Made by a program: the position numbers and the translations under genes. Below the pieces are notes generated by a model. The model was given only the letters and a program-made list of their open reading frames with translations. It was not told where the DNA came from and did not search any database. Shown here in pieces: positions 11,690-64,000 of a stretch of DNA of 64,000 nucleotides; the stretch's first letter is position 1; each line of letters begins with the position of its first letter. This stretch comes from Cinnamomum chago (taxonomy: Eukaryota; Streptophyta; Magnoliopsida; Laurales; Lauraceae). The stretch spans positions 40,845,501-40,909,500 of the forward strand of contig CP142461.1 in NCBI GenBank assembly GCA_038049695.1, given 5' to 3'.

Positions 11690-12060
11690 GCGTGAATCGG
11701 GTCAACCGGTGCGAGACCAGGTCAACCCGGCTATTTGAAATGAAATTTATGCAAGAATGGCTAAGGGCCAGTTTTCCAAGAATTCCCAGTGTGGCAGGTT
11801 AACCTGGGTGGGTACCCGGTTAATCTGCCCTACATGGACTCAGCCTGCAGAAGGAAATAACTGGGAGCAGGGTTTTGTAAAAAATACAGTTTGGCCGGTT
11901 AACCGGCCTGCACAGTCCGGTTAACCGGCTGAACTGAAAAGGGGTCCCTGCAGCAGAAATAGCTGGGAGCTGCCATTTCTGCAATTTCAGTGTGTCCGGT
12001 TGACCGGCCTGCAAAGCCCGGTCTACCGGCTACACTGCCGGTTAACCAGCCGGTCTACCG
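11690..12060. repeat. Palindrome cluster in E1 (CCGGTTAACCGG type)
   Basis: About eight perfect or near-perfect copies of CCGGTTAACCGG and its variants (GGTCAACCGG, GGTTGACCGG, GGTCTACCGG) at uneven spacing inside E1, roughly 1.2-1.6 kb downstream of its TATA-like box. CpG is preserved in most copies. Confidence 0.8.
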
Positions 12061-12419
12061 GCACCCTGAAATGGGAGAAATCCCAATTGCTGTAACCTTT
12101 CTGTTTTGCCTCCTTTTACACCCAAATCACTTCCAATCACTTCCAAACTTCACCAACACCATTCTAAACATAAAATGACTCCATAACCATCCGTCCATCA
12201 CCTTATGGCCCACTGATCTTCCAAATGGGGGGTGAAAACCCCCATCCATCAGTGACCTTTCCATCCAAAAATACAAAAACAAGCTTAGGTGGAAACTAAA
12301 CTTACTGAACACCAAAATGAGCTGAAAACTAATGAAATCACGAAAATAAACACACATCCTAAGTTATTAGTATGATGCACTTGCCTCTTGTGAAATGGGT
12401 TGTAGAGAAACAACTTAAA

Positions 12420-13120
12420 GAGGGAGAGAAACAGAATTCCAGCAGTGAAGTGGAGAAGAAGAAAACCCAGCTGCTGTAGCAGAGTGTAGCAGTAGCTCCA
12501 AATGAAATATCCAGCAGCAGGAGGACCTCCCAGGTGATATGAAGAAGAAGAAGAAGAAGAATACAGCAGCAATGGCTCTTGAAAATTGTTTCCAGCACCT
12601 CAGTGAGGGAAGAGAAGTAGTGGCAGCAGCTGTGACTCTCTTAATAAAGAATTCCAGCAGAGTAGAGAAGAAAGAGGAGTAATGGCAGCAGCTGCTACAG
12701 AGGAGGAAATAAGAAGATGAAGGGGTGGCTGCTCCAAGAAATGTTTCTCCCAGCACAGGTTCAGCCCAGCTCAGTAACAGTGACTGGGAAGGGAAATAAC
12801 AGAGGAAGAGGAGAGATGAGGGAGATGGGTTGCAACAGCTGCTCCCAGCTGAAATTGAAAAAGGGGAGAAGCACAGCAGCAGAGTGGGTGTAGCAGCTCT
12901 AGAGAATGGCTCTTCCAGCACAATAGAGTAAGTGAAGAAGAAGGAGATGACCCAGCAGCAACTCCTAAGATGGATTCCAGCAGTAACAGCAGCAGAGAAG
13001 AAGCAGTTGCAGCACAGCCCAGGGAAATTCCAGCAATGGCGGATGAGAGAAATGAAGGAGGAGGATGAAGTGGAAGAAATGAAGAAGACAAAGTGGTGGC
13101 TGCTGCAGTGGTCTTCAAGG
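12420..13120. repeat. CAGCAG/GAAGAAG-rich degenerate repeat in E1
   Basis: About 700 bp of near-uniform purine-rich sequence with recurring TTCCAGCA, GCAGCAGCTG and GAAGAAG words at irregular intervals. On the minus strand it reads as long open frames rich in leucine, serine and phenylalanine, which is a consequence of the low-complexity base composition, not a recognisable protein. Confidence 0.6.
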
Positions 13121-13720
13121 TGAAGTCTCAGCAACCAAACTAAGCTCAACGTATGAGAGGAACTTAGAGATGGAAGTTGGGAGTTGCAATGGGCTGGAGG
13201 TAGTTGGGAGTTCTTCTTGGGAAGGGGGCTGGAGGTTTTCTCGGGAATGGGGTTAGCTTAGGTTTAGGGTTTTGCAAGAGTTAAGAGAGGTTTTATAGTT
13301 TTTAGTGAGGGTGGTTAATTACTTGATTAGCCTTAGGGTTTAGTGGAATTAGGGTTAGGGTTTGAGGGTAGGCTGGTCATTAGGTTAGGAAACTTCTAGA
13401 AGAGCACCCTTACACTAACCCACACTAATTAACTTAATTAAACTTAACTAAGGACCCACCTTCACTAATAGCCTAGGATTAACTCATACACCTAACTAAT
13501 CTAGTCTACCCAAAAATCTTAGGAGATCTAACTAGTCAATCTACTTAGCCCCTAATTAGCACAAATAATTAGTAATTAGCCAAGATTAGCAAAGATTAGT
13601 AGTAATTAGCAAAGATTAGTAGTAATTAGCATAGTTAACCAATAATTAGCATAAATTAGAATTTATTAGTCTATAAAATAGCAATTAGAGGGCCCACCAA
13701 GGGCGGGACCTCACATAAAG

Positions 13721-14200
13721 TGTTGGTGATTTAGTCATCTTCAAACTTGTAGATATGCTTAGATTAGGTGATTTAGGGCTTAAGGTGTGGATTAGGATTT
13801 GTGAATTTAGGGTTTGAAATTAGAATTTAGAGATTAAGGGCTCAGATTTAGGTATAGAGTGATTAGGATTATACTACATTCAAGGAGGGAGGGAGATTGC
13901 TTTATTTAGGGTTATTTGGTGTAAGAGATAGATTAACCACGAGAGGACCGACAACAAGAAGCTCGATCCGCACAAAGAGGATCTCGAGCTCTGGAGAGAA
14001 AAAAGATGTTGAAAGAGAACGGCGCGAAGATGATCTTGTACTCTCAATCACCAAGGTTTTGTGACATGGAGTGATTATAAGGTTTAGACGTGGGGCAATT
14101 ATTTATTAGATATATAGGGGACAAGTCATACGCATTTAAATCTCTAGTAATTTCAAAATCAACATGGGCCTACCGCCCCATATTATTTATGTGCAGGTCC
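13721..14200. other. Non-genic segment between two LTR insertions
   Basis: AT-rich sequence with TTAGGGTTTAG-like words and a short purine-rich block (13935-14035). No gene or repeat end could be assigned. It continues on the far side of B1 as 17802-17958, so E1 and B1 both inserted into this older host segment. Confidence 0.4.
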
Positions 14201-14495
14201 ACCACTGATCGACACTTATAACTGCAACGCTTAACTGCATGACTACGGTGTCGTCAAGTAGTAAAGAACTAAAGAGTCCGGATTATCGATCCCACGGAGA
14301 GAGGATGGAAGAAGCAATGAATCCAATTAAAAGAGAATTGAACTAAGATATAACCAATATAGAAATTGAAGTGAACAATTAAAACTACTAAACTATGTGT
14401 GAAAAAATGGAATTAAACTAATTAAAATGCGAAACAAAACTAAAATAACAACTAAACTGAAAGTCCTTGGGATCCTAACCCTAGAGGGGAGGGGA

Positions 14496-14517
14496 GGGGG
14501 GGGGGGGGGGGGGGGGG
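14496..14517. repeat. 22-base G homopolymer in C1
   Basis: Follows CTAGAGGGGAGGGGA near the LTR tip, so it looks like expansion of a G-rich motif native to the element. The corresponding C2 end is missing. Confidence 0.9.
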
Positions 14518-14749
14518 TGAATAGGGTGTGCTACAAGTATGACCAATTAAGACCAAATTTAATTTTACTAATATCAACTAGTCACATGTGATGATAAACA
14601 ATCAAAATGCGGAAGCTAATAAAACAATCACCACAAAAGCAAGCACCACAACACAAAGGTTTATAGTGGTTCGGCCTCAATGCCTACGTCCACTACCGGC
14701 TTGTGATCTAATCACCCCACCGGATTTCCACTATTTATGCTTTTTACCA

Positions 14750-14970
14750 GGCTAAGCAATAACCCTTACAATGTTGTTTTTCTAGGCTAAACAATAACCT
14801 CTCAATGTGCTTTTCTAGGCTAAGCAATAACCTTTACAAAATGCTTTTCTTAGGCCAAGCAATAACCTTACAAGATGCTTTTCTTAGGCTAAGCAATAAC
14901 CTTTACACAATGCTTTTCTTAGGCTAAGCAATAACCTTTACACAATGCTTTTCTTAGGCTAAGCAATAAC
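14750..14970. repeat. Short tandem repeat in C1 (about 42 bp)
   Basis: Roughly seven units built around TTTTCT(TA)GGCTAAGCAATAACC. The inverted C2 copy has only about four related units (19350-19480), so copy number differs between the two LTRs. Confidence 0.75.
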
Positions 14971-15798
14971 CTTTACAAATAAAGATTTCTCTAAGAAAGT
15001 GTCTTCACAAAAGATCACTCTAAGAGATACAAATTAAGCTCAATGAAAATGCCTCTTAAATAGGCTAATATGAAAGTGAATAACAAACTCACACAAACAC
15101 TAAATGAATGCAAATGTGTATGCTCATGATGTGTGTGTGTGATAACTTCAATCAAGTTTAAAAAGAAAGCTTATTCAAATGTATGCTCAAAGCATTTCAA
15201 AGTTTAAGGCACATAAAAGATTTGATTGAAGTTTAATGCAAATCACATGTATGTAAAACAACTTGTTAATGATATAAAAATCAAAGAATCACAAGTTGTA
15301 TGAAAATGACTAACTTAGAACATGTGATGCATGTGCAATGTTGTTTTCAAAACCAAATTGATTTAACTAAAGTTTAAATGAATGAAAACAACAAATTAGG
15401 TTTCAATCAAGACAAAGAATCATGCTTTAAAGGAAATCAAAGACTTTGGCCAAGCATGATTAAGAAAGGTTTAGAAACAACTTGGATTGAAACCAAGGTG
15501 AAGAATCCAATCTTAATTAGATCAAAGATTAGGAGAAGCATGGATTCAACACATCATAGTTATTATGCTAAATATCAATTACTAATAATTTAAACAAAGC
15601 ACATAACTATGATTAAGAGAGGTAGAGCTTACTTAGAGATTTAACTTCATTAATCCAAGCTTTAGCTCACCAAATGACTCTTTGGTCTCTCTTAGTTCAT
15701 CCCCTTTGTCTTATCTCCAAATGCCTCAAAGAAGGCTTAAAAATCTCTAACTTTTGGCAAAGGAAAGAACTCATTTTATAGTCAAAAAATGCCCAACG

Positions 15799-15960
15799 GT
15801 TAGTCCTCGGTCGACCTGCACACAGGCCTCGGTCGACCGAGATCACAACGGTAAAAAAAGTGACCGTTGGAGCTCCAGGGACCCAATCAACCAGCAGTGT
15901 CGCCGGTCGACCGGGACCCCTGGGCCGGTCGACCGGCGACACTGCTGGCCGACCCCCTGG
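15799..15960. repeat. Palindrome cluster in C1 (CCGGTCGACCGG type)
   Basis: Four or five copies such as CTCGGTCGACCGAG and GCCGGTCGACCGGC within 160 bp, immediately upstream of the C1 TATA box. Confidence 0.8.
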
Positions 15961-17963
15961 GGCCAAAATTCCCAATAATTCATATTTCAAAGTTATTTCT
16001 TAGGGAAACTTTTGGCCACTAAATCAAGCTTGAAAAACATGTTTTAAAACATTCTAAGAGTTTTAAAAACATGAAACACACAAAGCCAAAAAAAGATTCG
16101 AAACTTTAAAAACAAAGGCTAGCTTGATTTCTAAAAACTCTTTTAAAAAACAAATGCATCCAAGATTTAAAAGCAAAACATGCATAAAACAAGATTTCTT
16201 CAAGTCTAAAACCAATGCATGTAAAAATCAAGATTTCAAGATATTTTAAATCAATGCAAGTGTGTGTAAATCAAATGATGCTAAAGTGAAAATGCATCCA
16301 TCAAATTGCAAATACAAAATTCCTAACATAAACTACTCTAACTAAAAATCTAAAATCTAAAATTAATAAAATCTAACAAACTTCACTAAATTAGTGGATG
16401 AATGGTAGTAGAAATTGAAGCTTTAAAGTGAAGATGTGGTGTGAAATGTATAGGATTTTAAAACAAACTATATGAAATGTGTATCTAACAATCTAAAAGT
16501 GAAAATAACAAATTAAATAAAGATTAAAGTTTAAAACAATCAAGATAAGAGATTAGGCAATCCAAAATCCATTAAGCATGTAATTAATCCAACGAATACA
16601 TGTTCTAATTCAACTCCCAAATCTACAATCCAATTAGCAATCTCTTGCTTAATTGGATTGGATGATATAGCAATGAAGATTAAAGTAAAGAAAATCAAAA
16701 GCCACGGTCCTAGATCATCATCTAGCCATTTTAACAATAATTCACCAAAATCAAGCTACAAAAGATCAAAGATAAGGGCTCTAGAACATGCTATGTGAGA
16801 GAACTTAATCTAATTACAAAGCATCACTTGAGATTATCCAAGCATTAAGTGTAGAGATAGAACATGAGAAATGAGAGAGATTATCACGACTAAATCGAAA
16901 GTCCACTAATCAATAAAGGCACAAGTAGTGAATTTAAACTAAAACATGCATGGAATTGAATTAATCACATTACTTAGCTTTAAAAGGAGAGTCTAATCCA
17001 AGAGCTTTAGCCACTAAATGTCAAGAAAGAGCTCTAAATCTTCATTAATGATATTTAATTACACACTCTCTCTCTAAATTAGTTACAATAAGCTCCTAAT
17101 TACAATCTAAAACTTAAAATAAAATTGGAAAAAGACTAATTTGCCAACAGATCTTCACTACATTCCAATTTATAGAAACATTGAGGACATTTGATTGGCT
17201 CATTTCTTTTCACAATGATTGCTTCCATTTGATTGGTTGCAACTTAGAGGCTTTTGATTTGCTCATTTGCTTTCACATGGATTGCTTCAATTTGATTGGT
17301 TGCAACAAACTTTCTTTCCAAAAGGATATGTGCTTTTTTTATTTTTGTGGTCTTTTTATTTTGGAGGCATTTGATTGGTTCATATCCTTTCACATGGATT
17401 TGTGCCATGGCTTTGTTGGGGTTTCATACACACCCAAGCTCTAACCAATACACAAATCAATCATTTGTTTTAGAAAATGACTTCTTTTATCCTTATAGGC
17501 ATCTCCTCTTATTTTAAAATTCTTCAAGTCTTTCTAAGATTTCTTCACATAACTTCTTCATTGAAATATCTTCTTGATGCCTTGAGACACTAGCCAGAAG
17601 GTTATGGTAGTCGCGGGGTCCACCTACACAAGAGAAATTACATAAAAATGCGCTATAAATAATCAGATTTATGCATGATAATCCATTAATGTGATAAAAT
17701 GATAGAATCTCCATATAAAGTAAATGATATGCACATGAGATGCTGATAAAATTCAGACTAATGAGGGGTAAAATATGCAATATTTAACACTCATCAACCA
17801 CTAACACTATTGCTGCCACTATCGGAAAGGAGACCTGATCGACGATTGAAATCTGTGCTGGAGGGGACAATGGGGTCGGGCGGGAAGACGAGGTAGGGTC
17901 TTGGTATCGACACGTTTGTTGATTTCATGAAAATGGGGTTTGAATAAAATCAGGAGAAGTTCT

Positions 17964-19655
17964 TGTTAGGAATTTTGTATATTGCAATTTGATGGATGCA
18001 TTATTATATTAGCATCATTTGAATTTACACACTTGCATTGATTTAGAAAATCTTGAAATCTTAGTTTATACATGCATTGTTTTTAAGACTTGTAAAAATA
18101 TAGTTTTGTGCATGTTTTGTTATTTAAACTTGGATGCAATTAGTTTTTGAGTTTTTTTTTAATCAAGCAAGCCATTGGTTTTAAAGTTTCAAATCTTTTT
18201 TGGCTTTTTATGTTTCATGTTTTAAAACCCTTAAAATGATTTAAAACATATTTTCAAGCTTGATTTAGTGGCCCAAAAGTTCCCTCAAGAAAATACTTTG
18301 AAAAATGTAAAATTAGGGAATTTTGGTCCCAGGCCCAGGTCGACCCGCAGTGGGCCAGGTCGACCGGCTTAACAGTTGACCAGGTCGACCGACCAAACAG
18401 GGGACCAGGTCGACTGGGGAAAGGCCAGGTCGACCGGGAAAGAGCCGTTGGCTCCTGTCAAATGGCAGTTTTATGACCGTTGTGAAGGCCAAGTCGACCC
18501 AGGGGTCATGAGGTCGACCGAGGACTAGCCGTTGGGCAGTTTTGGGCTATAAAATGAAGTTCATTCCTTTACCAAAGTTAGAGGATTTTAAGTCTTCCTT
18601 GAGGTGTTTGGAGACTAGACAAAGGGGATGAACTAAAAGAGACCAAGGGGTCATTTGGAGAGCTAAAGCTTGGATTAATGAAGTTAAATCTCTAAGTAAG
18701 CTTTACCTTTCTTAATCATATGTTATATGCTTTGTTTAAATTATTGGTAAACGAATTTTAGCATTATAACTATGATGTGTTGAATCCATTCTTCTCTTAA
18801 TCTTTGATCTAATTAAGATTGGATTCTTCACTTTGATTTCAATCCAAGTTGTTTTAAAATCTTCCTTAATCATGCTTAGCTAAAATCTTTGATTTCTTTT
18901 AAAGCATGATTCATTTTCTTGGTTGAATCTTTATTTGTTGTTTTCATTCATTTAAACCTTAGTTAAATTTATTTGGTTTTGAAAACAACATTACACATGC
19001 ATCACATGTTAGGTTAATTAATTTCATACAACTTGGTAGTCTTTGATTTTCATATCATTAACAAGTTTGTATTTATACATATGATTTGCATTATACTTCA
19101 ACCAAATCTTTTATGTGCCTTAAACTTTGAAATGCTTTGAGCATATATTGATTGAGCTTAGTTTTTAAACTTGATTGAAGTTATCACACACACACATCAT
19201 GAGCATACACATTTGTATTCATATAGTGTTTGTGTGAGTTGGTTTTTCAATTTCATATTCGCCTATTTTAGAGGCATTGTAATTGAGCTTTAATTGTATC
19301 TCTTTGAGTGTTTGTTTAGACACTTCTTTAAGAGAAATCATTTTCTTGTAAAGGTTATTGCTTAGCCTAAGAAAAACATTGTGTAAAGGTTATTGCTTAG
19401 CCTAGAAAAGCTTCTTGTAAAGGTTGTTGTTTAGCCTAGAAAAACAACATTGTAAAGGTTATTGCTTAGCCTATTGAAAAGCATAGATAGTGGAAATCTG
19501 GTGGGGTGATTAGATCACAAGCCGGTAGTGGACGTAGGCATTGAGGCCGAACCACTATAAACCTTTGTGTTATGGTGTATGCTTGTGGTGATTTCTTTTG
19601 TTAGCTTCCACATCTTGTTTGGTAAATCATCACTTGTGACTTGTTTATTTTAAAA
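17964..19655 (+). mobile_element. Solo LTR C2, inverted relative of C1 (3' end unclear)
   Basis: Begins TGTTAGGAATTTTGTATATT and is similar along its length to the reverse complement of C1, including the GTGGTTCGG-type block (19530-19555) and the AAGGTTATTGCTTAGCCTA repeats. Similarity stops at about 19645, roughly 120 bp short of the C1 terminus, and no copy of the upstream GTTCT is found, so the right end is lost or rearranged at the junction with the LINE that follows. TATAAAATGAAG lies near 18549. Confidence 0.7.
18330..18520. repeat. Palindrome cluster in C2 (CAGGTCGACCGG type)
   Basis: Seven copies of a C(C/A)AGGTCGACC(G/C) word within 190 bp, ending about 30 bp before the TATA box. 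Several are only half-palindromic compared with C1, so the array has diverged in sequence but not in position. Confidence 0.8.
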
Positions 19656-22489
19656 GGCCTGTTAAGGGAACTCTGGATTTTACCTGCCCACTATGTATAG
19701 TGTGTGTTCGGCCTTGCCTAGACAGATATGTCTTTACCATTCCCAATAATCCACCCTATATGATCATTGATAAGATTAATTGCATTCACAAAACCACTCC
19801 AAAATTAGAAATTTTCCGAATTAAAATTTGCCTCCTAAAGAGACTTCTTGGGGCAATATTTAACCTTGATTATCTTGGTGCATAATAAATTTTCATTAGT
19901 TATGCATCTCCAAGCAGTTTTGGCTAGTAAGGCTATATTATTCTCTTTGGATTTTCTAATACCAAGACCCCATTCCTCGATGGGTTTGCATAACTCATTC
20001 CATCTTATAGTATGGAACTTCTTTTTGTCAATCCCTTCTCTCGACCAGAATTTTTTCATTATCTTATCCAAACAATCCAAAGTCTTATTAGGTAACCAAA
20101 GAGCCAACATATAGTTAAAGAAGAAAAGAAAGATTTAACTAAGGTGTTCGTTCTAGCTTGAGATAAAATATTGGCTTGCCAAGACTGTATTTTTTTCTTA
20201 GTTTTTGTTATAAAAAGTCAAAGTAAAGAATTTTAGTTCTCTAAAAAAGAATAGGACTTCTTAGATATTTTTCAGTCTCATTCATAATTCTGACGCCTAA
20301 AATAGAAGTGAGCATTTCACATCAAGGCTGACATTATTCTTTGCTAAAACATGATGTTGATTTATTGAAGTAAACCAACTAACCAGAAATAATACAATAG
20401 TTATCAATAATATCTTTTAATCACTCTTAGTGAGCATTTCCCTTATTGAGGCATTACAAAAAAATAAAACAGTCATCAGCAAAAACTAAGCGTGAGACAC
20501 TAGGAGCACTCCTGTGAATTCTAATCCCATTGATTCTACCTTCGTCTTCTGCTTTAGCAAGAAGTAAAGAGAAGATCTCCGCAGCCATAATAAAAAGATA
20601 TGGAGATAATGGATCTCCTTGTTTTATGCCACACAAAGGACTAAAATTCCCAAAAGGAGACCCATTTAAAAGGATGGAGTAATACACAAAAGAGACACAT
20701 TCTTTTACTAGAGAAATAAATTTATTATGAAAACCTAAAGAAGCCAACACTTCTTCCAAGAAATCCCATTCTAACCTATCATAGGCTTTGGCCATGTCTA
20801 ACTTAAGAGCCAACGATTTATTTTTCGAGGAATGTAGAGCTTCATTGACCACCATATAATTGTCCGTTATTATTCTACCTTTAACAAAAGCACTTTGGTA
20901 AGGACTAATAACTTTATCAAGGAGATCTCTAAGTTTGTTAGCTATAACTTTAGAAATAATCTTATAGCCCACATTAGATAAGCTTATATGTCTAAAGTCA
21001 TGCGCATTTTGCGGCTTATTCTTCTTAGGAATGAGGACAATAAAAGTTTCGTTAATTTTTTGAAGAGAAAAGCCAACTCTAAATTATTTTGAACAAGGGA
21101 ACAATATCTTTGCCAATGTCCCCCACATATGTTGATGAAAAATAATAGGATAGCCATTGGGACCTGGAGCTTTAGGAGTACCTAGCTGAAAAGTAGCAAC
21201 TTTGACTTCCTCCAAGGAAGAAAGAAATAGAAATTAGTTTATCATTTTCTTCATCATTTAAATAGGTTTGATGACATATTTGATAGTTGATAGATCTGTA
21301 TCTCCATTAGTAGCCATTATCTTAGATAGGTGAGCACATAGTTCATGTCACGCTCCCGAACCCGGATCCCTGCAGTGGTCTGACCTTGAGGACGCGAATT
21401 GATGAAGTAAGTGATAAATAATATTTCTCTTTAGGATCTGCGTGTGTGAGGAAGACATAATTTCCAACACATCAAAACATTTCGCAGAAGCTTACGTGGC
21501 GTTGCGATCCGGAGTCCATGGCCATCGAATTCCACATCACATTCAACCTATCATCATAAAGCTGTCATAGCAATGCTCAAACTCAGACTGGACAAACCAA
21601 GATAATAACATATACAGAGCTGACAATAACATGTTGATTATTTCCCAAGCATAGTTATAAATTAACAAGTGCATTAATTACAATCCCAAGGGAAAAGGCT
21701 AATGAAAGCTGTACAAAATAACAAACTAAGAACAAATACTACCCAGGTGTGTAACATAACTCCGGAGTCGAGCCCGACATCTATATGACATCACTGACAC
21801 AACAAACCTGCAAAACTCGTTGCTCTACAGCCATCTGCACACGTACTAGCTTAAGACGAGAACTTGCTACCTAAAGCACCAAAGTATAGTACATGAGACA
21901 CGATGGTCTGGCAGGTAATCAATTTATGTACGAGCATATACAAAATTAAAGTTTAAAAGAGACAATTTTAAAATAATTTACTAAATTTAAAACAAATACG
22001 TGACTAAGAAACATTTCGAAGAAACGAAAGTCCATGAACGATAAACGAAACAAAACTGGCATGCATACATATAATATCATGATTAGTAAATTCACAAGAG
22101 CCCTTCCTTTCTCCATCATACAAGATGACAAGAGCAAGCAAGACAAAGCAAAAAGAATCCCATGCTACACGAGGTAGACGGGGTCTGTCCTGGGAACCGG
22201 AGCAAAGTGAAGATGTGTATATAGATATACGACTAATCTGCAGATAGTCTATATATTTAAGGATCCCCGGACAAGTAGATCAGACTGAAGGGGCAATTCA
22301 AGCTTAGTGGTATTCACCTAAATTCATGAATGCACAAAACAAGTGAAACATATACAAGACAGATAAAAAATAGGGGAAAATCACTTATCAAAACAAAGCT
22401 AAGCAGAACATAACAGAGATAGCATAAGCTATGAACATATCGAAACATAAGAAGTGATTCCCTATTTGGTTCTTGAAATAATCCAAAAC

Positions 22490-22690
22490 AAAGCTGATAC
22501 TTGTAAGTCAAAACAAGTGCAAACCAATACCCGAAACAAAACTGATACTTATTAGTCAAAATGAGTGCAAACCGATACCTGAAACAAAATTGATACTTAT
22601 TAATCAAAACGAGTGCAAACCAATACCTGAAACAAAACTGATACATAAAAGTCAAATCAAGTGCAAACTGATACCGAAAACAAAACTGAT
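22490..22690. repeat. 48-bp tandem repeat in E2, about 4 copies
   Basis: Units contain AAACAAAACTGATACTTATT and AGTGCAAACC. The minus-strand open frame across it merely repeats a YQFCFRYWFALVL-like peptide. Confidence 0.85.
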
Positions 22691-22949
22691 ACTTTCCGCA
22701 TCAACCCTAAGGTTTTCAAAATAGACTCCTCAAGCATATGCTAAGGCCCATCATTTGATCATTGTGTAATTGAAACCCAAATGTTGACATTAAAAGTGGA
22801 TGGGTGCCCCTAAAGCTAAACACCATTTCAGATTTTCAAATGCACAATATCAAGCTAAAAGCCCCTCAACATATTATGGTTTTCATTCCTACAAAAATCC
22901 TTCAAAAACCCATTTTTTCTTCGCTTAATCAACCACAAGTCAGAACTCG

Positions 22950-23100
22950 GGCTTGATAACCATCCGCTCGAGCGGACTGGCCTAAAGGCTTGCTCGCTCG
23001 AGCGGACCTAAGCTCGCTTGAGTGGGCAAAGTCCCTGGCCAGCGCCTCGCCAGACAGAGGCCTGGCTCGCTTGAGCGGGCAAGGCTACTGCCTGCTCGTT
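22950..23100. repeat. Palindrome cluster in E2 (CGCTCGAGCG type)
   Basis: Two perfect CCGCTCGAGCGG-like copies and two or three with one or two changes (CGCTTGAGCGGG) within 150 bp, about 0.9-1.05 kb downstream of the TATA-like box on the minus strand. Confidence 0.8.
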
Positions 23101-25321
23101 CAATGCAGGAAAATTCTGCCCCTTTTTACATGTATTTGTTTCCCTTTTTCCTCCATTCACTTCCAGAACCTGCAAAGAATCCTCCTAAGGACATTTCCAT
23201 CCCTTCCTTCACATCTTAATCATCCCATAGCTCCAAACAACCTCCATTTCAAATCAATTCACATTCCTAAACTCCTCCATTTCTCCAAAATCAACGATCA
23301 TCCAACACCCTATACAAGCAAGTAATTTTAGACAAAAACAGAATCAAACTTAGATAAATAGAGGATTTTCATAAAAATACAAAAAACATATGCATGCAAG
23401 TTAAAAATAGAATTCAAAACTAATCAACCTTATTGATATAAACACAAGTGCAAAACTAGTAAAGGAAATCAAACATTTGCACACAAATAATTTCCATACT
23501 TAATATGCCTTAGGACAACTAAAGAGATCACTTGCCTTTGTCTTCAAATGGACCAAAACACACTCCCAAAACACCTCCCAGTTGCTGGAACACTCAGCTA
23601 CAAAAGCCCCAAAATCCCATCTTAGAACACCCAAAAAAGAGAAAATGAGAAGGAATGGAAATGGGGGCTTGCATGCATGACAAAGAGACGCCCCAAAGGT
23701 TTCCTAATCATAATCTAGAAGGTGAGAACCTCTCCTTACCTGTAGATGACCTGATTAGCAAGAAAACAGTGAAGGAAGAGGGCTGCCCAGCTTTGTTTTG
23801 CATAAAAATGGCATGTGTAGGGAGCTAAAGGGGTGGGGAAGAGAATGGAGAAATCAAGCCTTCAATTTGGTAGAGTTTGGTGGGGATTTGGGAGAGAAAG
23901 TGGCCAAAGAGAAGAGGAGAAGGAGCTCAGCTGGCAGCTCTGCACTCAGTCACGTTTGTGGTAGAAAAAATGGAGAAGAAATTAAAGAAAGAAGATGGGC
24001 TTATAAAAGTTGTTGATAATGGGGCCCACAACTTAAAACTCTTTATGTGCTTAGAACTGGGCTTTCTGGGCCTCGGATGGACTTGATGAAGACTAAAATG
24101 ATCCTCATAAAATCTAATTTTCAAAAAGTATACTTTTGACATGGTTCAAAATTTTCGAAATTTGGGCTCAGATTTCAATGTGAAAAGGTTGTTTTGCCCA
24201 TAGGGCTGAAAAACTGATTTTATGGGCTTCGAATGGATCGGTGTGAAGATAAAAGTTGTTGGGGCCAATTTGACCTATCAAAAGAAACCAAATTTGAAAA
24301 TTTTTCAAAATCAAGAACAATCCCCCCCACGCTAACACGTGCACCCCAAGGCGTCCCCAGACTGCCAGACTGGGTTCAACGGCTCTCAAAATTCCCCAAA
24401 GTTACAGAAAACTATTCTAAACCACAAACCAACTCGATTAGGCTCAAAACTCACTTAGAGAACTAACCCAAAGCTAAAAACACACTAATCGTGAAAATTA
24501 GGAGTCGGGGTCTTACAGTTCATTACATATTGCTTCTTTATTCCTCAACCAAGAGCCCTTAGAACTTATAAGCAATTTTATTTTGTTTTGCTTTATTTTA
24601 TTTATTGTACTGGCATTGAAAATCTTGGTATTTTTGTCCCCCTCCTTTAACCACAATTCTCTTGATTTTTGCTTCCAAAGATCCTTTTCCCGATAAAGAA
24701 ATTCCTCTAGATTTTCATTGAGCTCAATTTCCTGAGATATAGTATTCTCATCTGGAGTTAAATTTTCTAACTCATCCTTAGTGTTCTAAATCATAGTTTC
24801 AACTTTCCCAAAACTAACTTTATTGCATCTAGTAAGATATTTTCCTAACTAGAAGAGAGGTTTACATAGATTTTCATTATCTATCTTATCCATGTTCCCC
24901 CATCTTTTTTTAAGAACATTTTCACATTCTTCATCTCTAAACCACATACTATGGAGTCTAAAAGGATGAGGGAGTGTTTGTTTATTTATTCTTTCAAGGA
25001 ATATGATTGGGGAGTGATCAGAACTACCCGCTGTTAAGGTAAAGAAAGATCCCTATGGAAACTTCATTCTCCAATTAATGTTACCTATAGCCTTATCCAA
25101 TCTTTCCTTAACATGAGCCAAACCTTTTCTTTTATTAGACCAAGTGAAAGACGTGCCATTATATTAAAGGGCTTCCATAAAATTAAGGCACAAACCAGCG
25201 TTTTATGGCTTGATTTTTGCCAGCCCATTTTCCAGATTTTTTAAAATCCCCTGAATCATTCATTGTCCTCCAATATTTTCACCAATTTCATACAGTTTAT
25301 CCCAAAATTCCCTTTTTTCCG

Positions 25322-25322
<1 letters not shown>

Positions 25323-25352
<30 letters not shown>
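25323..25352. repeat. 30-base G homopolymer
   Basis: Interrupts the remains of the LINE endonuclease region. Confidence 0.9.
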
Positions 25353-25353
<1 letters not shown>

Positions 25354-25530
25354 GGGAGATAAATTATTTATCTATTTCTAGTATACTTAAATCAATTTCT
25401 TCATTACAGGAAATGGCTATTCCTCTTGCCTTACCTTCAGCAACCCTCAATGCATAATTACAAAATTTAGTTTTCTTGGCAAGGGTTGTCATATCTCATT
25501 CTCCATATTATAGAAAATTTGGGTGGAAGT

Positions 25531-27241: not shown

Positions 27242-27250
27242 TATTCTTTA

Positions 27251-28341
27251 GAGGAGTTTATGAGAAAAGTCCCCATAGAACCCCATATGGTCTACCAGGA
27301 CCTAGTATCACGTTGGACACGGGAGGGGTCCTTATGTGTCACTTTTCTTTTCTTTTTTCTTTTTTCTTTTTTTGTGTCGTTTTGCGATATGGGCGATATC
27401 GACCATTTTCACTGAAGATAGAAGCTACTCCTTCCAAGTTAAATTGTTTTGTACTGACAGAAATGGTCGATATCGATTATTCCATATGGTCAATAGCGGT
27501 CATTTTCATTGAAAACATGCAGAAGCTACCGCCTTTCACTTAAATTGTTTTGTACTGACAGAAATGGTCAATATCGACCACTTTCACTAGAATCGCACCC
27601 TAGAATACACGAAATCGAATGAATCTCTGGCGAATAAATAGGTCAGTACAGTGGCTAGTGGTAAAAGATTAAAGATGATCGTTTTGGACGAACAGTGGGT
27701 GATCAGTTGGAGCTTGAGACCCATGATAGCGAAAATGGTTGAATGTAAGAAGTGAGTTTTCTTTGGAGCCCGATTTAGGGTTAGAAAGTTCTTGCTTTTG
27801 GGGAAAAAGAGAGGGGAATGAAATGAAGGGGGGGGGGGGGGGGGGGGGGGGTGTGTGTTGAAGGGGATTATGGTTAGTGTCTGACGGAGCTAAGCTTGGA
27901 GGTGTTTTCGCCTTCTTACATGGATTCAAATTTGGGGTTGGTGTATGAGTGGATATTAGTTTCATTTATGAAAGAAATGGAAACTCAATAAACGAGATGA
28001 GAACTTGTTTGGCTTTGGTTGGTTCTTGTTTCTGTAATCTCTTGAGGGGAAAAGCTGAGGATTTTCACAAGGAAAAAGAACTATGAGGTAGAGATGGCGA
28101 GAGTCGCAGAAACTGGAGCAGAAGAGAAGTAAAAAGAAGAAGGAGAAAGAGAAGGACAGGAAGAAGAAGATGAATAGTTACACTGCTTTGACTTCTTTTT
28201 GTGACGGTCGATATCGACCATCTAAAAAAAAGTTAAAAAAACGTTGGAGCACCATCCAGAGGACCCCTCCCATGTCCAACATAATATTGGGTCTTGGTAG
28301 GCCATATGGGGTCTTATTGAGATTTTTCCCGTAAATTCCTC
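27251..28341. mobile_element. Mutator-like nonautonomous element with long inverted ends (1091 bp)
   Basis: The first about 170 bp (27251-27420) and last about 170 bp (28170-28341) are inverted repeats, with conserved words ACCCCATATGG, TCTACCA and GGGAGGGGTCC. Flanks are TATTCTTTA (27242-27250) and TTTTCTTTA (28342-28350), a 9-bp duplication with one mismatch, typical of Mutator-like elements. No transposase is present. The interior (27580-28160) has a GC-richer stretch with a poly-G run and a possible captured fragment of unknown origin. Five copies or near-copies of GGTCGATATCGACC occur at about 27389, 27463, 27485, 27563 and 28205. Confidence 0.8.
27828..27851. repeat. 24-base G homopolymer
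   Basis: Inside the Mutator-like element, followed by TGTGTGT. Confidence 0.9.
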
Positions 28342-30836: not shown

Positions 30837-30856
30837 TATATATATATATATATATA
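30837..30856. repeat. (TA)n microsatellite
   Basis: About ten TA units. Confidence 0.85.
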
Positions 30857-35087: not shown

Positions 35088-37654
35088 TGTTACACCCCGA
35101 CCCAAATTAATCGTGATTAAGGCTAATTAATTAGGATTAATGCTAATTAAGCATGAGTAATTGGGTTAATGAAGATTAATGGCTAAGAAGAGACAAATTA
35201 GTCTCAAATGATGCATTAAGCATAATGAAATGAAATTGAGTTGGTTAAAATGAGTTTAAACTCAAACAAGGTAAGCTAAGGACTTTTTTCGTAAATACGG
35301 GTTTTTACGTATTTCGTCAAATACGGAAGTTCTTGATACCAACGTGTGTATCTCGAATAGTACGTTAACTTTCATAATAGACGCGATTCCATTTGACCTC
35401 AAATGGACCAAATGAGGCTTCATTTGACTCAAATTATAATTACACTCAATGAAAGGGGGTTTTAGTGTGAGGAGACCTTATATTAGAATGAAATGAACTC
35501 TTTCACTCATTTCACCTTAAGCAAACCCTAGACACCATTTCCTTCTCCCTTTCTCTTCCATTCCTTTTCATCAAGGGTGAGATTAGGAGTAGTTTGAGTG
35601 GCTTTGAGAGAGAAGACTCCATCTTCATCCTCAAGTCCTTTCCCCATTTTTGAAGAGTTGAAGCTTGAAAGGGAGCTTAAGACCTCTTTGCTTGGACTAC
35701 AAGTAAGTAGTTGGTCTTCTCCTAGGATTTCCAAGTTCCATTGGTTGTTTTGTAGAGATTTCTAGCTCAAATGGCTCATGAGTTGTGTATTTTCATGTTT
35801 TCATGGGATTAGGGTTTGATTTGGGGATTGTAATCTCAAGCCAAGCTAGGAAAAAGAGGGTTTTTGCTACTAAGCTTCAAGAGAGGCAAGTATAAACATT
35901 TACTTGTGATTTTGTGTGTTATTGAGGTGTTTGGAGTTCAAGGGACTCAATGTCCAGAAATTAGCTTCAGAAATCTGAAGCTCTGGAATTTGTCTTGGGT
36001 AGTTCGGCTAGCCGACGTGTTAACCGCTGAGCTAACCGCTAAAAAAATTCACAGAATGGTGCGTCTCTGAAAAGCTAACCGCTAGATTTTGGTTAGCCGA
36101 AATCTAAATTTCGGCTAGCCGAAAGGTAACCGTTGAGCTGACCGAGTTTAAGTCAGGAATCGTCAAGCTTCTGGAAAGCTGACCGCTAGCTAACCGAACC
36201 AAGTTTCGGCTAGCCGCCAGTCAAAGTTCGGCTACCCGCTAATCAAGTATCTGCTAACCGCCAGGTAACCGAATTTGATACTGGCCAAGACATTTATTGT
36301 GATTGAAAATCAGCGGATTTTAGATTTTTGCATGGACTTGGAGTACCTCTTGCAAGTATAAGTGCTCCTTCAATTAGTTTTAAGTCCAAACTTCCATGGG
36401 TGATAATTACGGGGACTATATAATGCACATATTAAATATATAAATGTGATGTCCATCGAGAATAACACGTGCATTTAGAAACCAATGGTTACACCCAAAT
36501 GGTTGTTTAGATTCGAGACTGAGTTGAGTAGAACCATAAATGATTAGTAGGTTCTCTCATTGCATCGTACACCACATTGTTGGGTTCCAATCTAGTGAGA
36601 TTGGTATTACTACTACTACCTTCTCTTGTTACGAAGAGAATTATTGAATTGAATTGAATCGAGTAATTGATTGCTTATTGGAAAGCATTAACTCTTGAGT
36701 CTGACACTACCTAGCTATGATATTAGAACTTAAATGAGTTCAATGAATTAATAAATGAAACAAATGACTAATACTACTACAGTAGATGAATTTGGGGGCG
36801 TTCCGGAACTCCGTGGTGATGCTAGTTGTCCCTGGCCCGAACACTAGTAAGTCCCACATATTCCGATCATATCTATGGGTATTGATTGATGCCTTCCATT
36901 TGGAAAATGAATCCTTCCTTTGAGGGAAGATGGTAAATTAAATGAATGAAATGAAATGAATAAATGAAAGCTATGGTAGTGACCATCTTGTACATGACCG
37001 TTGATTAATTCTTAAGTTACCTATTGTCATAGTATGATAGTAGGAATTATCCAGACTTGTCTAGAATGATAATTGTTACTAAATAGATTTGATGAATTCA
37101 ATATATGTACTAACATGTGCTATTACAAGATTTGTTTATACAATGTTGAACCGTCGTGTTTACTAGTTTTATTGATGGCATTATAGGCCCGATTGCCCTG
37201 GTCGGTGCACCAGCGCCCCCGGCGGCAGCGGAGGAGACTGTTCCGGTTCCTCGAGGAGGCTTAAATGAATGGAATGGTCGGGATACCATTTGATATGGGT
37301 ATCCGAGTGCGAGTCGGAACTATAACATTTTGAGAAACGTTTGGAAAAGTTATATTGTACATTCATTTTTGGAATGTAATTAATTGTTATTGTATGGTGT
37401 TTTGGATATGCACCAATTGACAAGCAGATGATGGAAATGATACATGTATAAGGACTTTATTCTTTTGTATACATGTAATTCGTGAATTGATATTGTCAAA
37501 TATAATTGTTTCCGCAAAAGTTGTGTATTTGACAGGTTTAATGAGAATGTTATCCCTTGTGGATTCCATTTTAACTTCGGTTAACTCGGAGTTCACGGGA
37601 GCAAGTATGGGCTCACGGCTCGGGGTTATCGTAATTCGGGCCCGGGTCGTGGCA
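35088..37654 (+). mobile_element. Solo LTR E3, long-LTR Ty3/Gypsy type (2567 bp)
   Basis: Starts TGTTACACCCCGACCC, ends CCCGGGTCGTGGCA, and is flanked by a perfect CCTTT duplication (35083-35087 and 37655-37659). CTTATATTAG at about 35471 is the best TATA-like box. A palindrome cluster lies at 36000-36290. It is noncoding, with no direct end repeat. The inverted TGT-AC-CCCG termini match E1 and E2 in style. The exact duplication suggests limited age. Confidence 0.85.
36000..36290. repeat. Palindrome cluster in E3 (TTCGGCTAGCCGAA type)
   Basis: About ten words of the forms CGGCTAGCCG, AACCGCTAGCTAACCG, GGTTAGCCGAA and AGGTAACCG in 290 bp, starting about 530 bp downstream of the TATA-like box. 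Confidence 0.8.
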
Positions 37655-53769: not shown

Positions 53770-53804
<35 letters not shown>

Positions 53805-57521: not shown

Positions 57522-57557
<36 letters not shown>

Positions 57558-57581
57558 CATTATTATTATCATTATTATTAT
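57522..57581. repeat. (ATT)n microsatellite
   Basis: About 20 trinucleotide units with two ATC interruptions. Confidence 0.9.
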
Positions 57582-59649: not shown

Positions 59650-60500
59650 GGTTTCCATTTCTACAAAGCTTCTACGTAGAGAGACAAAGGAAGGTTCCTT
59701 TTAACTCGAGGCGGTGCCTTTCCTCTGCCAAACATCTGTTGTACATGTATCCTAATAAAATATGGCATAAAAATGGACGGCGTGATGCTACGATAGATGT
59801 TTATTAGTTGTCAGTGATGAGTTGTCATTGCCAAAATAGTGGAAATGACTAGGAGGGGTGCACTATCCCTGTGGGTGATGAGTTTTAATTGCTGAATATG
59901 GAATGGGGTGTCAATTTAATTAATTGCGTTCAGAGACCTTATGTGGTTTAGTACTAAAAGATAAGGATACTGATTTTCCAGCACCAATAGATTAACTATT
60001 TTTATAATAGGAAAGATTTTGTACACCTTAAAGATATGGAGGATGATCAAGACCATTGAGTTTTTCCATTTTGACTAAGCTTTCATGTTAGATGTGAGTC
60101 ACCGATCTTATACATGTGATGAATTAGTGTTATGAATTATTACATTTATAAGTATTTTAATATATTTTTTAAAAATTGCAATCCATTAAGTGATCTATTT
60201 GTAAGTCCATTGGCTCCATTAGGTTTCGGCCAGAATATATATTGATTAAAAAAATGAGTCTTGATATCACGCATTCTATAATATGGCTAAGTCCCCAAAT
60301 AAATCTAAACATTAATTTGTTGCATTCTGAGTTGTATCAAGTTGGTCTTGTGTCATCACTTGCTCCCATTCAGGTTAAATCCAAACCCTCATGTTTATCT
60401 CCCACTTAGGGATTGGCACTTAACTCAATTAAACGAAGCTAAGATGCCAACATAAATTGAACCGATATTTAAGATAACCACCAAACTAAAGCTTCTATAT
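59650..60500 (+). repeat. Dispersed repeat R, short copy
   Basis: Parallels 28420-31280: head CTACGTAGAGAGACAAAGGA at 59668, one unit of the 188-bp type (59860-60050), tail with TAGATGTGAGTCACCGATCT (about 60090), and end block (GTCCATTGGCTCCATTAGG...CTCATGTTTATC) at 60200-60400. It lacks the tandem amplification of the long copy. Confidence 0.65.
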
Positions 60501-60629
60501 GCACAAATATACCCGTTATATGAGAAATTATTGATCCTAAATATAAATAGTTTTAACATAAAAGAAACAATTATTAGGGCAAGCACAAGACACTTGATTT
60601 GAAAACGTAAATAAAACAACTAAAAGAAG

Positions 60630-61540
60630 GGACCTTATAGCTGTGGGTGACAACTTGGAGTTGCTAAAAAAGGAATGAGGGGTTTGAATGCATTTGGACT
60701 CTTTGCAATACCATAAGATAAAAGCAACTTTTAGTGCCGAAAAAATAAACTACCAGGGCACGTTTGTGTACGCACCCTTTCCGCGGAAAGAGGAAATTGC
60801 CACGTCAGCAAATTCCATAGAAATGAAAACCTCGGAAAAGGATTTCCGTTGAATTTAGAAATTCATGTTTGGTGCAAAAAGAGTTTCCTCATTGAATTGG
60901 TGCAGATGTTGTTTGGTGCGGCTGTGGATTCCTTATAGAAAATCAAAATTTCTTATTTGGTGATATAATTTTTTGAAGAAAATAACATAACATGTATATT
61001 ATTTATTTAACATTAAATAATAATTTATATAAAGAAATAAAAAATAAAAGAGTTATAGGGTTTTTGGGTTGAAATGGACAAAAGTGAGGAAAAGATGGAG
61101 AAGTTTTCCGAGGAAAACCATTTCCCATACCCCCCATGGGAAACCCATTTCCACAATTATCAAGGAAAATGCTGACGAGGCAGGAAAACATTTTCGCGGA
61201 ATTGTTCCGCACCAAACGCCGGAAAAATGGGTTTTCCGCGGAAAACCGTAAACTTTTCCGCGGAAAAGTGTTATACAAACATGCCCTAAAGGTGTTCTTT
61301 TTCCACTGCTAAAAGTCACTTTGTTTAGTACAAGTTTAATATTAGGGGATAATGATACATATGGATTTGTTATTCCTATCCAAAAGTTCATCAAAAAAAT
61401 CTATGCACCTTGGAGATACAAAGAGGGATCAAGACCTGATTTGGTAAAAACCAACATTAGCCATCCATTTTCTTTTTTCCTATTGAATGTGGGTCTTTGA
61501 TCTTCTGGTACATTAGGTGAATTAGTATTGATACATATAT
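60630..61540 (+). repeat. Dispersed repeat R, third partial copy, carrying a MITE
   Basis: 60630-60752 (GGACTCTTTGCAATACCATAAG...) and 61290-61540 (GGATCAAGACC, TTGAATGTGGGTC, GAATTAGTATT) match the unit and tail of repeat R; the MITE below lies between them. Confidence 0.55.
60754..61288. mobile_element. MITE with TTTCCGCGGAAA subterminal repeats
   Basis: Left end AGGGCACGTTTGTGTACGCA and right end (reverse complement) AGGGCATGTTTGTATAACAC, followed on both sides by CTTTTCCGCGGAAA. The inverted similarity continues inward (TTTGCTGACGTGGC against AATGCTGACGAGGC). The length is about 535 bp and it is noncoding. Flanks do not give a clean 3- or 8-bp duplication, so hAT versus PIF/Harbinger is open. 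Confidence 0.65.
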
Positions 61541-61562
61541 ACATACATATATATATATATAT

Positions 61563-61930
61563 TAGCAAGGCTCTCCTAAGCTCAAGTTTATGATAGAATT
61601 TCCGTAAGCTCATGCTTGTAGGGCCAACCTTTGGTCTATCCAAATGAACCAAACACATGACTCCTCTAAATTGCACATGTCCACCAACTTTTGATCAGAT
61701 CAGAATTTACCGGACCGTTAGATCGACTATGTATCGATCCGAATTGACTATTGACCATTAAACTTTTGGGCCCATATGAAGAATATAGAAATTACGATTG
61801 AGGCTGATTTTTTGCAGAGATGAATATCCCAAGGACTCCTTGAAATCCCTCCCATCCCCATCCCCATGTGGGCCCCACCACACACTTGAGCTTACCTTAT
61901 CCTAAGCTTGAGCTTAGGAGAGCTGACCTC
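61563..61930. mobile_element. MITE with GCTCTCCTAAGCTCAAG ends
   Basis: Left GCTCTCCTAAGCTCAAGTTTA (61570-61590, written in two parts: GCTCTCCTAAG, CTCAAGTTTA) matches the reverse complement of the right end at 61903-61924 with one mismatch. It is about 365 bp, noncoding, and set in TA-rich flanks (a possible TA target). Confidence 0.6.
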
Positions 61931-62210
61931 TATATATATAAGATATCCCTTTCATTATACTTGGATAGAGGTTGACCCAGGTAAAAAATAAAAATGTTGT
62001 GGTAAAGTCCGCTGTTGAAGATAGTCTAGATCAATATGAACTTATTCTCTATGGCAAGTTCGCTCACACAATAGAGGGAGTGGTGATTGTAGTTGGATCA
62101 AAACCGCGCCCCATAGAAGCTTTTTCCCACAAAGTTTCTTTGAGTATCGACTTTTAGGTGAATCAAATTACCAGCATTTATATTAGATTTGAATTATTAC
62201 ATGAATAGTG
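61931..62210. other. Short spacer, nothing recognised
   Basis: Contains a 61-codon frame (61972-62157) with normal composition but no family I recognise. Confidence 0.3.
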
Positions 62211-64000
62211 TGTGAGAACCCGACCCCTAATCTCTTGGATTAGTGTCGTTTTATTTGTGGATTAGTTCTTTTAGTGGGAGTAGTATTTTTTGGGTTGAGT
62301 TCGTGAGCTAGAATGGTTTTTCTTCTAGTTTTGGGCTTTTGAGTGCTTTGGTAGCTTGTGGGGCCCTTTGGGGGTTCCCTTTTCGGCTTTGCTTTTACTT
62401 GTGAGATTTTCCCGATCTGCTTCGTATTGTGTTTTTGGCCCATTGCATTCATCTTGAGGAATCCTACAACTTTCATGTTGATCCCATATCCATTTGAGAA
62501 CCCGAAAACCGATTTCTTGGCCTTGAGGGCAAAACAGTCTTTTCACACCAAATCTGTACCCAAAACTCGATATTCTCGAAATCCGTGAAACATACACTTT
62601 TTGGAAACTAGATATTTCGACGATCATTTCTTCCTTCTTCGTCGAATCCATCCGAGGTCCCGAATTAGATGATTTCAGCCACCCAAGTTCTTTAAGTTGT
62701 GGGACCCATTCTCACTTGCTTATAAAAGGAGACCCTTCTCCTTCATTCACTCCATTCACCATTGTTCTAGCTGAGCCTAGGGTTTTCCATTGTGCAACTT
62801 CTTCTTCTTCTTGCTTCTTCATCTCCAAGCCACATCAATATTTCATCAATCAAGCAATGGAGACCACCTTCTTCTTCCTCATCTTACAAGCTTTCCATTG
62901 GTACCATTTGTGAAGAGAACCCTCCATCACAAGACTTTCCTTGAGCTTACCTTGTCCATTAGAGGACCTTCCAAGTAAGTGATTCTTCCCATCTTCTAGA
63001 TTTGTAATCTTCTAGCCTTAGAGAAGCTCCACCTTGATTATTGGAAAGTTTCATTGTCATTTCATTGGTTAACCCATTTTTGGGTTTGTTTTGGGGGTTT
63101 TTGTAGAGATTGTGGATCTTGAGCTTGAGAAGGGATTAGGAGCTTGATTTGCTTGATTAGAGTCAAAGGCAAGTGGATGAATGGATTGTTTTGATTATTA
63201 ACATGTTTTGTGAGAAAATCTTGATTCATTAATGGTTTTGGTGATTTTAATAGTTGTCTTTAATATGATTAATATTGATTTCAAGATGTGCTTATTGATG
63301 AGTTATTTCTCCCTTGTTAATCTCTTGGAAATGTATGCATCATATTGTCAAGGTTTCAAATGATTTCACATGAATGAGTTTTCTCCACCTTGTGATTAAT
63401 TGTGAATGGAAAGAATGGAAAGAGAGGAATTGGAAATGAGGAGCTCTTTAGCTCATGTTATTGTCTTGGAAACATGTATTTAAACCATCTTGTTTATGGT
63501 TCTTTGTGGCTGATCATGTGTTGGAAGGAAAGGAAACAAAAAGGAAGGAAAAATCAGCTTTCCCGGACCTGCTGTACCCAGGTCCGATCGATCGGACTGT
63601 CAGTAACTGTAAGGCTTTTTGGGCCGATCGATCGGACCCTGTACATTCTTGTACAGAAATTTCGACCGATCGATCGGCCGGTGAAATTTGATATTGTGTT
63701 TTTTTGGAAACCTTTGGGCCTTCTATGAGTCCTAGGGGTGTATACCTTAGTGTTAAGACTAATTGTACCATAATCTAAGGTCTCTAAGACTAGGGAACTA
63801 AAAGAAAAGAATGGTGTTGATTTAGACACTAATTCTTGGTTCTAGGTGGGACCCTGGCTACCCTTTTTGGACTGTTTGGACCAAGTGTGAGAATGTCTTG
63901 AGCCGACACGCCTCACGGTTGGTTCGGTGGCATCGAAGTTCAATCCATTTCAATCTTGAACGGGATGGAACGACGCGATATCTTCTTTATATCTAAACAC
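62211..64000 (+). mobile_element. Long LTR E4, 5' part (continues beyond window)
   Basis: Begins TGTGAGAACCCGACCCC; its first 400 bp align in order with the minus strand of E2 (shared GGGCAAAACA, CTTTTCACA, ACAACTTT and TTTTTGGAAA-like blocks). CTTATAAAAGGAGACC at 62718 is a good TATA box, and GCCTAGGGTTTTCC follows near the expected transcript start. A palindrome cluster lies at 63575-63690. Whether it is a solo LTR or the left LTR of a larger element, and its target duplication, cannot be seen. Confidence 0.65.
63575..63690. repeat. Palindrome cluster in E4 (CCGATCGATCGG type)
   Basis: Three perfect copies: GGTCCGATCGATCGGACT, GGGCCGATCGATCGGACC and GACCGATCGATCGGCC, about 40 bp apart, 0.86-0.97 kb downstream of the TATA box. 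Confidence 0.85.

Follow-up and report, generated by a model that had tools for sequence, protein, structure and literature searches.

The long terminal repeats (LTRs) of Sirevirus retrotransposons carry clusters of repeated motifs (RMs), which, according to Bousios et al. 2010 (PMC2829016), are palindromic, mostly have a CGG-CCG core and make up CpG islands ahead of a TATA box. In the portions of that paper available to us, the motifs extend over 300-500 bp, their words mostly differ among 13 elements (OPIE-2 and PREM-2 share one), and they are stated to be Sirevirus-specific, the survey comprising Ty1/copia elements. In maize, Sirevirus palindromes have been described as hotspots of small interfering RNAs in a fast-evolving region of the LTR (Bousios et al. 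2016, as cited in the accessible parts of PMC5311732 and PMC10760457). One such palindrome also occurs in 10.7% of structured Helitron regions of maize, so that in maize, too, more than one superfamily carries such words, and the same source refers to previous studies of other families whose cis-regulatory repeats are palindromic (PMC10760457, accessible part). A second comparable system is formed by the targets of VANC21, which are AT-rich (YAGTATTAY), lie in the same orientation, often as tandem repeats, and are read by an element-encoded protein (PMC5735166, accessible part). Here, we describe clusters of CpG-rich palindromes in a 64,000-nucleotide stretch of the Cinnamomum chago genome (C11:40845501-40909500, in a genome of 1.06 Gb and 14 contigs), which we call the window and whose positions are counted from its first letter. 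The clusters lie in four long LTRs (E1 to E4), in two inverted copies of a Sirevirus-like LTR, C(-) and C(+), in a Mutator-like element (MULE) and in a possible small element with terminal inverted repeats (TIRs).

The palindrome clusters in the window are real. A blind scan with no preset word, which called for at least three similar 10-bp CpG palindromes per 400 bp, was positive in 18 of 637 scanning windows, corresponding to six loci, and in none of 3,185 dinucleotide shuffles, where the maximum was a single member. The six loci comprise E1, C(-), E2, E3, E4 and a cluster of TTCCGCGGAA at 61.1-61.3 kb that was absent from an earlier sequence-only reading of the window, and both the MULE and C(+) fell below the threshold in these 637 windows of 400 bp. 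Perfect and near-perfect copies were found wherever that reading had placed palindromes, and the genome-wide count it had proposed, performed on the forward strand with the same pattern read backwards as control, placed the words far above the reversed controls: 237 sites versus 1 for TTCGGCTAGCCGAA, 651 versus 1 for the MULE word GGTCGATATCGACC, 1151 versus 6 for CCGCTCGAGCGG (a 12-bp extension of the E2 word), 2589 versus 98 for the E1 word CCGGTTAACCGG, 11616 versus 21 for the C word CCGGTCGACCGG, and 15936 versus 24 for the E4 word CCGATCGATCGG. Since four of the six reversed controls lack CpG and the genome is CpG-poor, these controls are, if anything, too generous. The observation thus stands in part, as other components of it, given below, did not hold.

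E1-E4 appear to represent a single type of long LTR. TG..CA ends and 5-bp target-site duplications were found in E1 (TAAAG), E2 (GTTCA) and E3 (CCTTT), and the 3' end of E4 lies beyond the window. Their first bases are similar (TGTGAGGTCCCGCC in E1; TGTAAGACCCCGAC, TGTTACACCCCGAC and TGTGAGAACCCGAC in the others), and E2 and E4 align with 69% identity over 255 bp close to the LTR starts; E1 and E3 are tied to the other E-type LTRs by the LTR ends alone. The description of the hosts as unrelated or distant is hence doubtful for E1-E4, and the notion of six unrelated elements was dropped in view of this common LTR form. In all four, the palindrome module sits 0.9-2.0 kb into the LTR. The E1 LTR (TGTGAGGTCCCGCC...GGGGCGTTACA; 9654..13715, 4062 bp, minus strand), with TAAAG on both sides, contains a module of ten CCGGTTAACCGG sites at 11698..12061 on the minus strand (LTR positions 1655-2018), one extra site outside it at LTR position 2315, and a putative TATA box, a consensus match only, at 13285..13298 on the same strand (LTR position 418). 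E2 is a solo LTR (21346..24517, 3172 bp, minus strand) with GTTCA on both sides and three CGCTCGAGCG sites at 22963..23079 on the minus strand (LTR positions ~1440-1554). E3, a solo LTR on the plus strand (35088..37654, 2567 bp) with CCTTT on both sides, holds the TCGGCTAGCCGA module at 36004..36282 on the plus strand, composed of five palindromes (36004-36239) and an array of single half-sites. The E4 LTR, starting with TGTGAGAACCCGACC, occupies 62211..64000 on the plus strand and runs past the window end; in 26 of 29 genome copies the 5' homology starts at this same border, with differing upstream letters (the exceptions are L016, L018 and L024). Its three CCGATCGATCGG sites lie at 63582..63679 on the plus strand (LTR positions 1374-1467), and a TATA-like box at 62720 on the same strand (LTR position 510) precedes the module by ~0.86 kb.

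Protein matches indicate that E1 is a Ty3/gypsy element, and the class assignment within E1-E4 is that of E1 alone. A 901-base piece between two E1 copies codes for a protease and a reverse transcriptase of Ty3/gypsy type, matching RVP_2 (7.1e-21) and RVT_1 (1.3e-13), as well as the PDB entries 4ol8 (1.5e-34) and 7q5b, the Ty3-G Gag-Pol (7.4e-34). E1 copies are spaced ~8.7-9.0 kb apart at several places in the genome, and the internal region estimated from this spacing is ~4.8 kb. Chains of E1-type LTRs on one strand at every 8.7-9.0 kb, as in LTR-internal-LTR chains, were seen at C6:65749391-65790978 (six copies, with a first gap of 4.6 kb), C5:68982369-69000636 (three copies) and C10:39262432-39272085 (two copies). 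In an E2 relative (L054), a tRNA-iMet-type primer-binding site lies 3 bp past the LTR end; none adjoins the other 12 of the 13 LTR ends examined.

The C LTRs, 1.7-1.9 kb long, show the features of the Sirevirus RMs, namely a CGG-CCG core and a module that starts 200-400 bp into the LTR, directly upstream of a TATA-like box. C(-) (14481..16328, borders approximate, minus strand) has a poly-C 3' end and four CCGGTCGACCGG sites at 15807..15936 on the minus strand, arranged as two pairs 22 bp apart, with a TATA-like box 25 bp downstream. C(+) (17964..19652, borders approximate, plus strand) is an inverted second copy, 83-89% identical to C(-), whose homology stops at 19652 before reaching a poly-C end; its module comprises six near-match sites at ~18336..18521 on the plus strand, again 25 bp before a TATA-like box (~18547). 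The two modules occupy LTR positions ~371-556 (TATA-like box at 582) in C(+) and 396-525 (551) in C(-), about 0.37-0.55 kb into the LTR. The likeness extends to the words, as the Vitis RM CGGTCGACCG equals that of C and the Citrus RM AATCCGGCTWRCCGGATT resembles that of E3 (PMC2829016, accessible part). The remark in the earlier reading that it knew of no comparable standard feature in LTRs overlooks these Sirevirus motifs, which are of the same kind and even have words in common with the window. The kind of cluster is therefore already known, having been published in 2010 for Sirevirus LTRs (PMC2829016), and it is extended by a Ty3/gypsy example in which the module follows a putative TATA box by 0.9-1.2 kb. 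The C modules (130-186 bp) are shorter than the published 300-500 bp; the E1, E2 and E4 clusters do not lie upstream of the putative TATA box; and E1, the one of E1-E4 tested by protein, is Ty3/gypsy rather than Sirevirus. No Ty3/gypsy case is described in the available parts of the maize reports, and a partial literature search, with subscription papers mostly outside it, found no report of RM-like clusters in Ty3/gypsy LTRs. New in the present elements are the common form of the five LTR words, the 20-22-bp distance within pairs, the one-turn distance between E3 half-sites, and the use of a single slot by different words in related LTRs; pair spacing, half-site arrays and word change in one slot are not discussed in the available part of PMC2829016.

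The five LTR words (CGGTTAACCG, CGGTCGACCG, CGGCTAGCCG, CGATCGATCG and CGCTCGAGCG) all fit a 10-bp dyad of the form CG-N-YY|RR-N-CG, outside which the MULE and TIR-element words fall. The CGG-CCG core is present in E1 and E3, and E2 and E4 have CCG..CGG. For each word, 50 places were listed, which lie on C1 (for E3, on C1 and C2), and among them neighbor gaps of at most 150 bp numbered 31 for E1, 10 for C, 7 for E2, 3 for E3 and 26 for E4, where at most 0.04 per word are expected. Gaps of 20, 21 or 22 bp account for 40 of these 77 and for none of the nine gaps of the MULE word, and this spacing recurs across different words, including those of further loci spaced 20-23 bp (GGCTCGAGCC at 20/21 and CGCTATAGCG at 21). 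A general 10.5-bp phasing over all gaps was also considered and is weak. Additionally, the E3 module contains 17 TRRCCG cores (13 plus, 4 minus) against a mean of 0.63 and a maximum of 4 in 500 shuffles, and seven of the 16 gaps between these cores measure 11-13 bp, which places half-sites one helical turn apart. Such direct half-sites suit a protein and not a hairpin.

The E2-type LTRs carry different words in one slot. For this and the analyses below, the best 40 candidates of each genome search were scored, which left 39 places outside the window, from which we took 29 copies each for E2 and E4 and 20 each for E1, E3 and C (the latter three without tandem neighbors, shorter matches and certain other full-length copies), together with eight MULE relatives out of many more matching places. 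Both flanks of the E2 module were homologous in seven of the 29 E2-type loci, six of which lacked homology in the middle, and in L043 and L056 this non-homologous middle holds CGGCTAGCCG-like words. When the downstream flank alone is considered, at most half of the middle is shared with E2 in 25 of 27 loci; among these, CGGCTAGCCG-like sites are present in L044, L061, L063 and L064, GGCTCGAGCC-like sets in L038 and L060, and CGCTATAGCG in L062. The slot is thus occupied by words of the CGCTCGAGCG, GGCTCGAGCC, CGGCTAGCCG or CGCTATAGCG types, and several other E2-type loci have none of the six tested words in it. Given that the E3 word is also found in E2-type LTRs, the words are not strictly family-specific, contrary to what had been proposed. 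The C word CGGTCGACCG also appeared in E2-type LTRs (L037, L039, L041, L042, L063 and L064), outside the slot or apparently in inserted DNA, and was not counted.

Conservation of the sites, defined as positions with at most three mismatches from the element's 12-bp word, was compared with that of position-shifted masks by mean pairwise identity in E1, C, E3, E4 and the MULE. Because the window copy served to define the sites, the result is biased somewhat in their favor, a bias that the shifted masks correct only in part. Under this scheme, the expectation that palindromes are better conserved than spacers held for E1 (0.913 versus 0.876 shifted, with 0.011 of shifts as high) and C (0.956 versus 0.883, 0.003). 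The claim that the words keep CpG held in E1 (233/298 inside sites versus 106/180 outside) and E3 (134/166 versus 169/258), and to a modest extent in C (199/210 versus 116/137) and E4 (239/251 versus 300/333).

With moderate confidence, we favor a model in which the LTR clusters are regulatory cassettes, open to exchange, to which a dimeric protein binds, probably one of the host. Each cluster would then be a cis-regulatory cassette of its retrotransposon, in which the 10-bp dyad may be read by a dimer with one subunit per half-site. At a distance of 20-22 bp, or about two helical turns, the two dimers of a pair could sit on the same side of the DNA, where their joint binding would raise LTR transcription. 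Since Ty1/copia-like and Ty3/gypsy-type LTRs have the word form in common, the protein would probably come from the host, as one of several paralogues in a transcription-factor family. LTR lineages may change their word by whole-cassette replacement rather than by site-by-site drift. In Tnt1, Tto1 and ONSEN, the LTR regulatory regions also consist of repeated sites for transcription factors, which vary among subfamilies; these are other motifs, not known to be CpG dyads. A LOB-domain host factor, such factors being readers of CGG/CCG, was considered and not adopted. A more specific version is tentative and in our judgment doubtful as a whole: the two LTR superfamilies would share a small lexicon of enhancer cassettes, paired two turns apart and read by word-specific paralogues of one host family, and exchange of the entire cassette in a fixed position would change the transcriptional niche of an LTR lineage.

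Several observations weigh against regulatory cassettes of this kind. Unlike an upstream promoter element, the E1, E2 and E4 modules follow the putative TATA box at a distance of 0.9-1.2 kb (LTR position 418 versus a module start at 1655 in E1, 510 versus 1374 in E4, and ~510, located by eye, versus 1440 in E2). C is called Sirevirus-like by its LTR layout and poly-C 3' end. The blind scan required CpG and at least half G+C and so was biased toward the favored word form, and two words of the E2-type slot depart from that form, GGCTCGAGCC lacking the outer CG and CGCTATAGCG having a TA|TA center. Gaps other than 20-22 bp make up 37 of the 77, E1 also showing 31-32 and 98-99, and the spacing counts come from related copies, so that they are non-independent and carry no formal probability; among the unique gaps of E4, a 21-bp periodicity was not significant (p 0.18). 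Sites were not significantly better conserved than shifted masks in E3 (0.879 versus 0.856, 0.147) or E4 (0.940 versus 0.892, 0.183). In the E2-type slot, L042 and L057 have no palindrome or one weak palindrome in the middle, and in L041 and L046 the palindrome stretch is absent and both flanks join, from which the cassette appears to be dispensable or deleted. Finally, the palindromes fold strongly as RNA.

This last point belongs to a different explanation, rather unlikely in our view, in which the palindromes act as RNA or single-stranded DNA hairpins and selection would be on their structure in the transcript, serving packaging or dimerization of the element RNA or the generation of small RNAs. 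Fold z-scores against shuffles reached -9.1 in E1, -4.2 in E3, -2.8 in E2, -4.3 in E4, -10.3 in C(-) and -5.2 in C(+); the E1, E2 and E4 modules, being downstream of the putative TATA box, are probably in the transcript leader; and the palindrome regions of maize Sireviruses have been reported as small-RNA hotspots (PMC5311732, PMC10760457, accessible parts). However, when the palindromes were kept fixed and the spacers shuffled, the scores fell to -0.4 in E2, -0.7 in E3, -1.8 in C(+), -1.9 in E4 and -2.7 in E1, with C(-) staying strong at -6.4. As spacer shuffling removes most of the excess except in C(-) and partly in E1, the folding follows largely from the self-complementarity of the words themselves. 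Dyad symmetry of the spacers exceeded the shuffled level (0.26-0.27) in E1 (0.43), C (0.39) and E2 (0.41), where the outermost pair is often merely an extension of the word, but was absent in E3 (0.27 versus 0.26) and slight in E4 (0.30 versus 0.25). Arm covariation was likewise lacking, the symmetric pairs matching expectation in E1 (1003/1008.5), C (405/404.6), E3 (426/427.5) and E4 (469/467.3), and the direct half-sites of E3 do not form hairpins. Selection on RNA through G-U tolerance gave no clear signal either: sense CG to TG versus CG to CA changes were 23:12 in E1, 7:1 in C, 17:13 in E3 and 2:4 in E4 inside sites, and 23:6, 6:5, 30:20 and 10:15, respectively, outside them. For an RNA dimerization signal, no matching paper was found in the literature searched. 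We favor the dimeric protein because of the spacing of about two turns and the direct half-sites one turn apart, together with folding that is mostly a by-product.

Neutral repeat growth, in which a chance palindrome spreads by minisatellite-like duplication and CpG is kept since the copies are young, is improbable. Duplicated units of 93-95 bp occur in E1 (93 bp, 76%, 11844-11936/11947-12037) and in the MULE (95 bp, 81%, 27387-27476/27484-27577), so that the statement that the spacers are not repeated fails in these two elements, the spacers being otherwise mostly unrelated; many genome copies are, moreover, 85-99% identical to the window copy. Nevertheless, the spacers inside pairs differ and the words stay, the same spacing is found with different words in several families, and the sites of E1 and C are conserved above the shifted masks.

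An element-encoded, VANC-like anti-silencing factor recognizing its own family's word, as the sequence-only reading had suggested, is very improbable, and of that interpretation the dimeric DNA-binding protein is the part retained, in view of the 20-22-bp pairs and the E3 half-sites. The words do vary from element to element and change as a group, but they are also common to different families in this genome. The E1 internal region of ~4.8 kb is little more than gag-pol, the reading of open reading frames having covered one 901-bp piece, and gag-pol alone is about that size. In the accessible part of PMC5735166, VANC arrays resemble the present clusters as short motifs dense in the non-coding parts of elements that change fast between relatives, and VANC21 motifs are AT-rich and set in one orientation. 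Words common to different families are also recorded in Table 3 of PMC2829016 (accessible part). The words described here are palindromic with mostly unrelated spacers, although E1 has its 93-bp duplication and 13 of the 17 E3 half-sites point one way.

Among the remaining features, the MULE (27251..28341, 1.1 kb) is a genuine, non-autonomous Mutator-like element with inverted ends 82% identical and 9-bp flanks alike at eight of nine positions, in which GGTCGATATCGACC-type words are dispersed at 27391, 27466, 27566 and 28206. As a case equal to the LTRs it was dropped, the word being unflagged by the scan and its sites (0.837) being no better conserved than spacers (0.834) or shifted masks (0.832, with 0.447 of shifts as high), with no CpG excess inside them (19/41 kept versus 79/163); the word is common genome-wide although these sites show no extra conservation. 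Ten GGTCGATATCGACC copies ~12.9 kb apart at G000:C1:34189675-34306031 suggest that a large element using the MULE word is arrayed in tandem there. Beside the MULE, at 28652-29555, there are tandem repeats of ~170 and ~360 bp, 65-72% similar to 59664-60037. The sixth cluster, TTCCGCGGAA (60777-61265), falls in the possible small TIR element (60756..61286), which has TTTTCCGCGGAAAA-type palindromes near both ends (60777, 61230 and 61252) and two degenerate copies inside. Its ends (GGGCACGTTTGTGTA.../GGGCATGTTTGTATA...) were matched by eye, and an ungapped 36-bp comparison gives 18 mismatches, poor beyond the first bases; these palindromes are possibly transposase-binding subterminal repeats. A context of long interspersed nuclear elements was set aside, as the reverse-transcriptase reading frames at 20457-21083 and 45266-46153 adjoin clusters and do not host them. 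On the minus strand, 851-2359 and 2722-3741 are likely host-gene exons, with a proline-rich product and a stretch that resembles, by eye, a WW domain.

If the reading of the LTR clusters as exchangeable cassettes is true, a motif so far described as the hallmark of one Ty1/copia genus would be in broader use among long plant LTRs, and its simple grammar would predict which host factor drives which element family. The clusters would also serve as a marker for the exchange of regulatory cassettes between otherwise distant families, and they would open direct tests of how retrotransposons gain and change their regulation.

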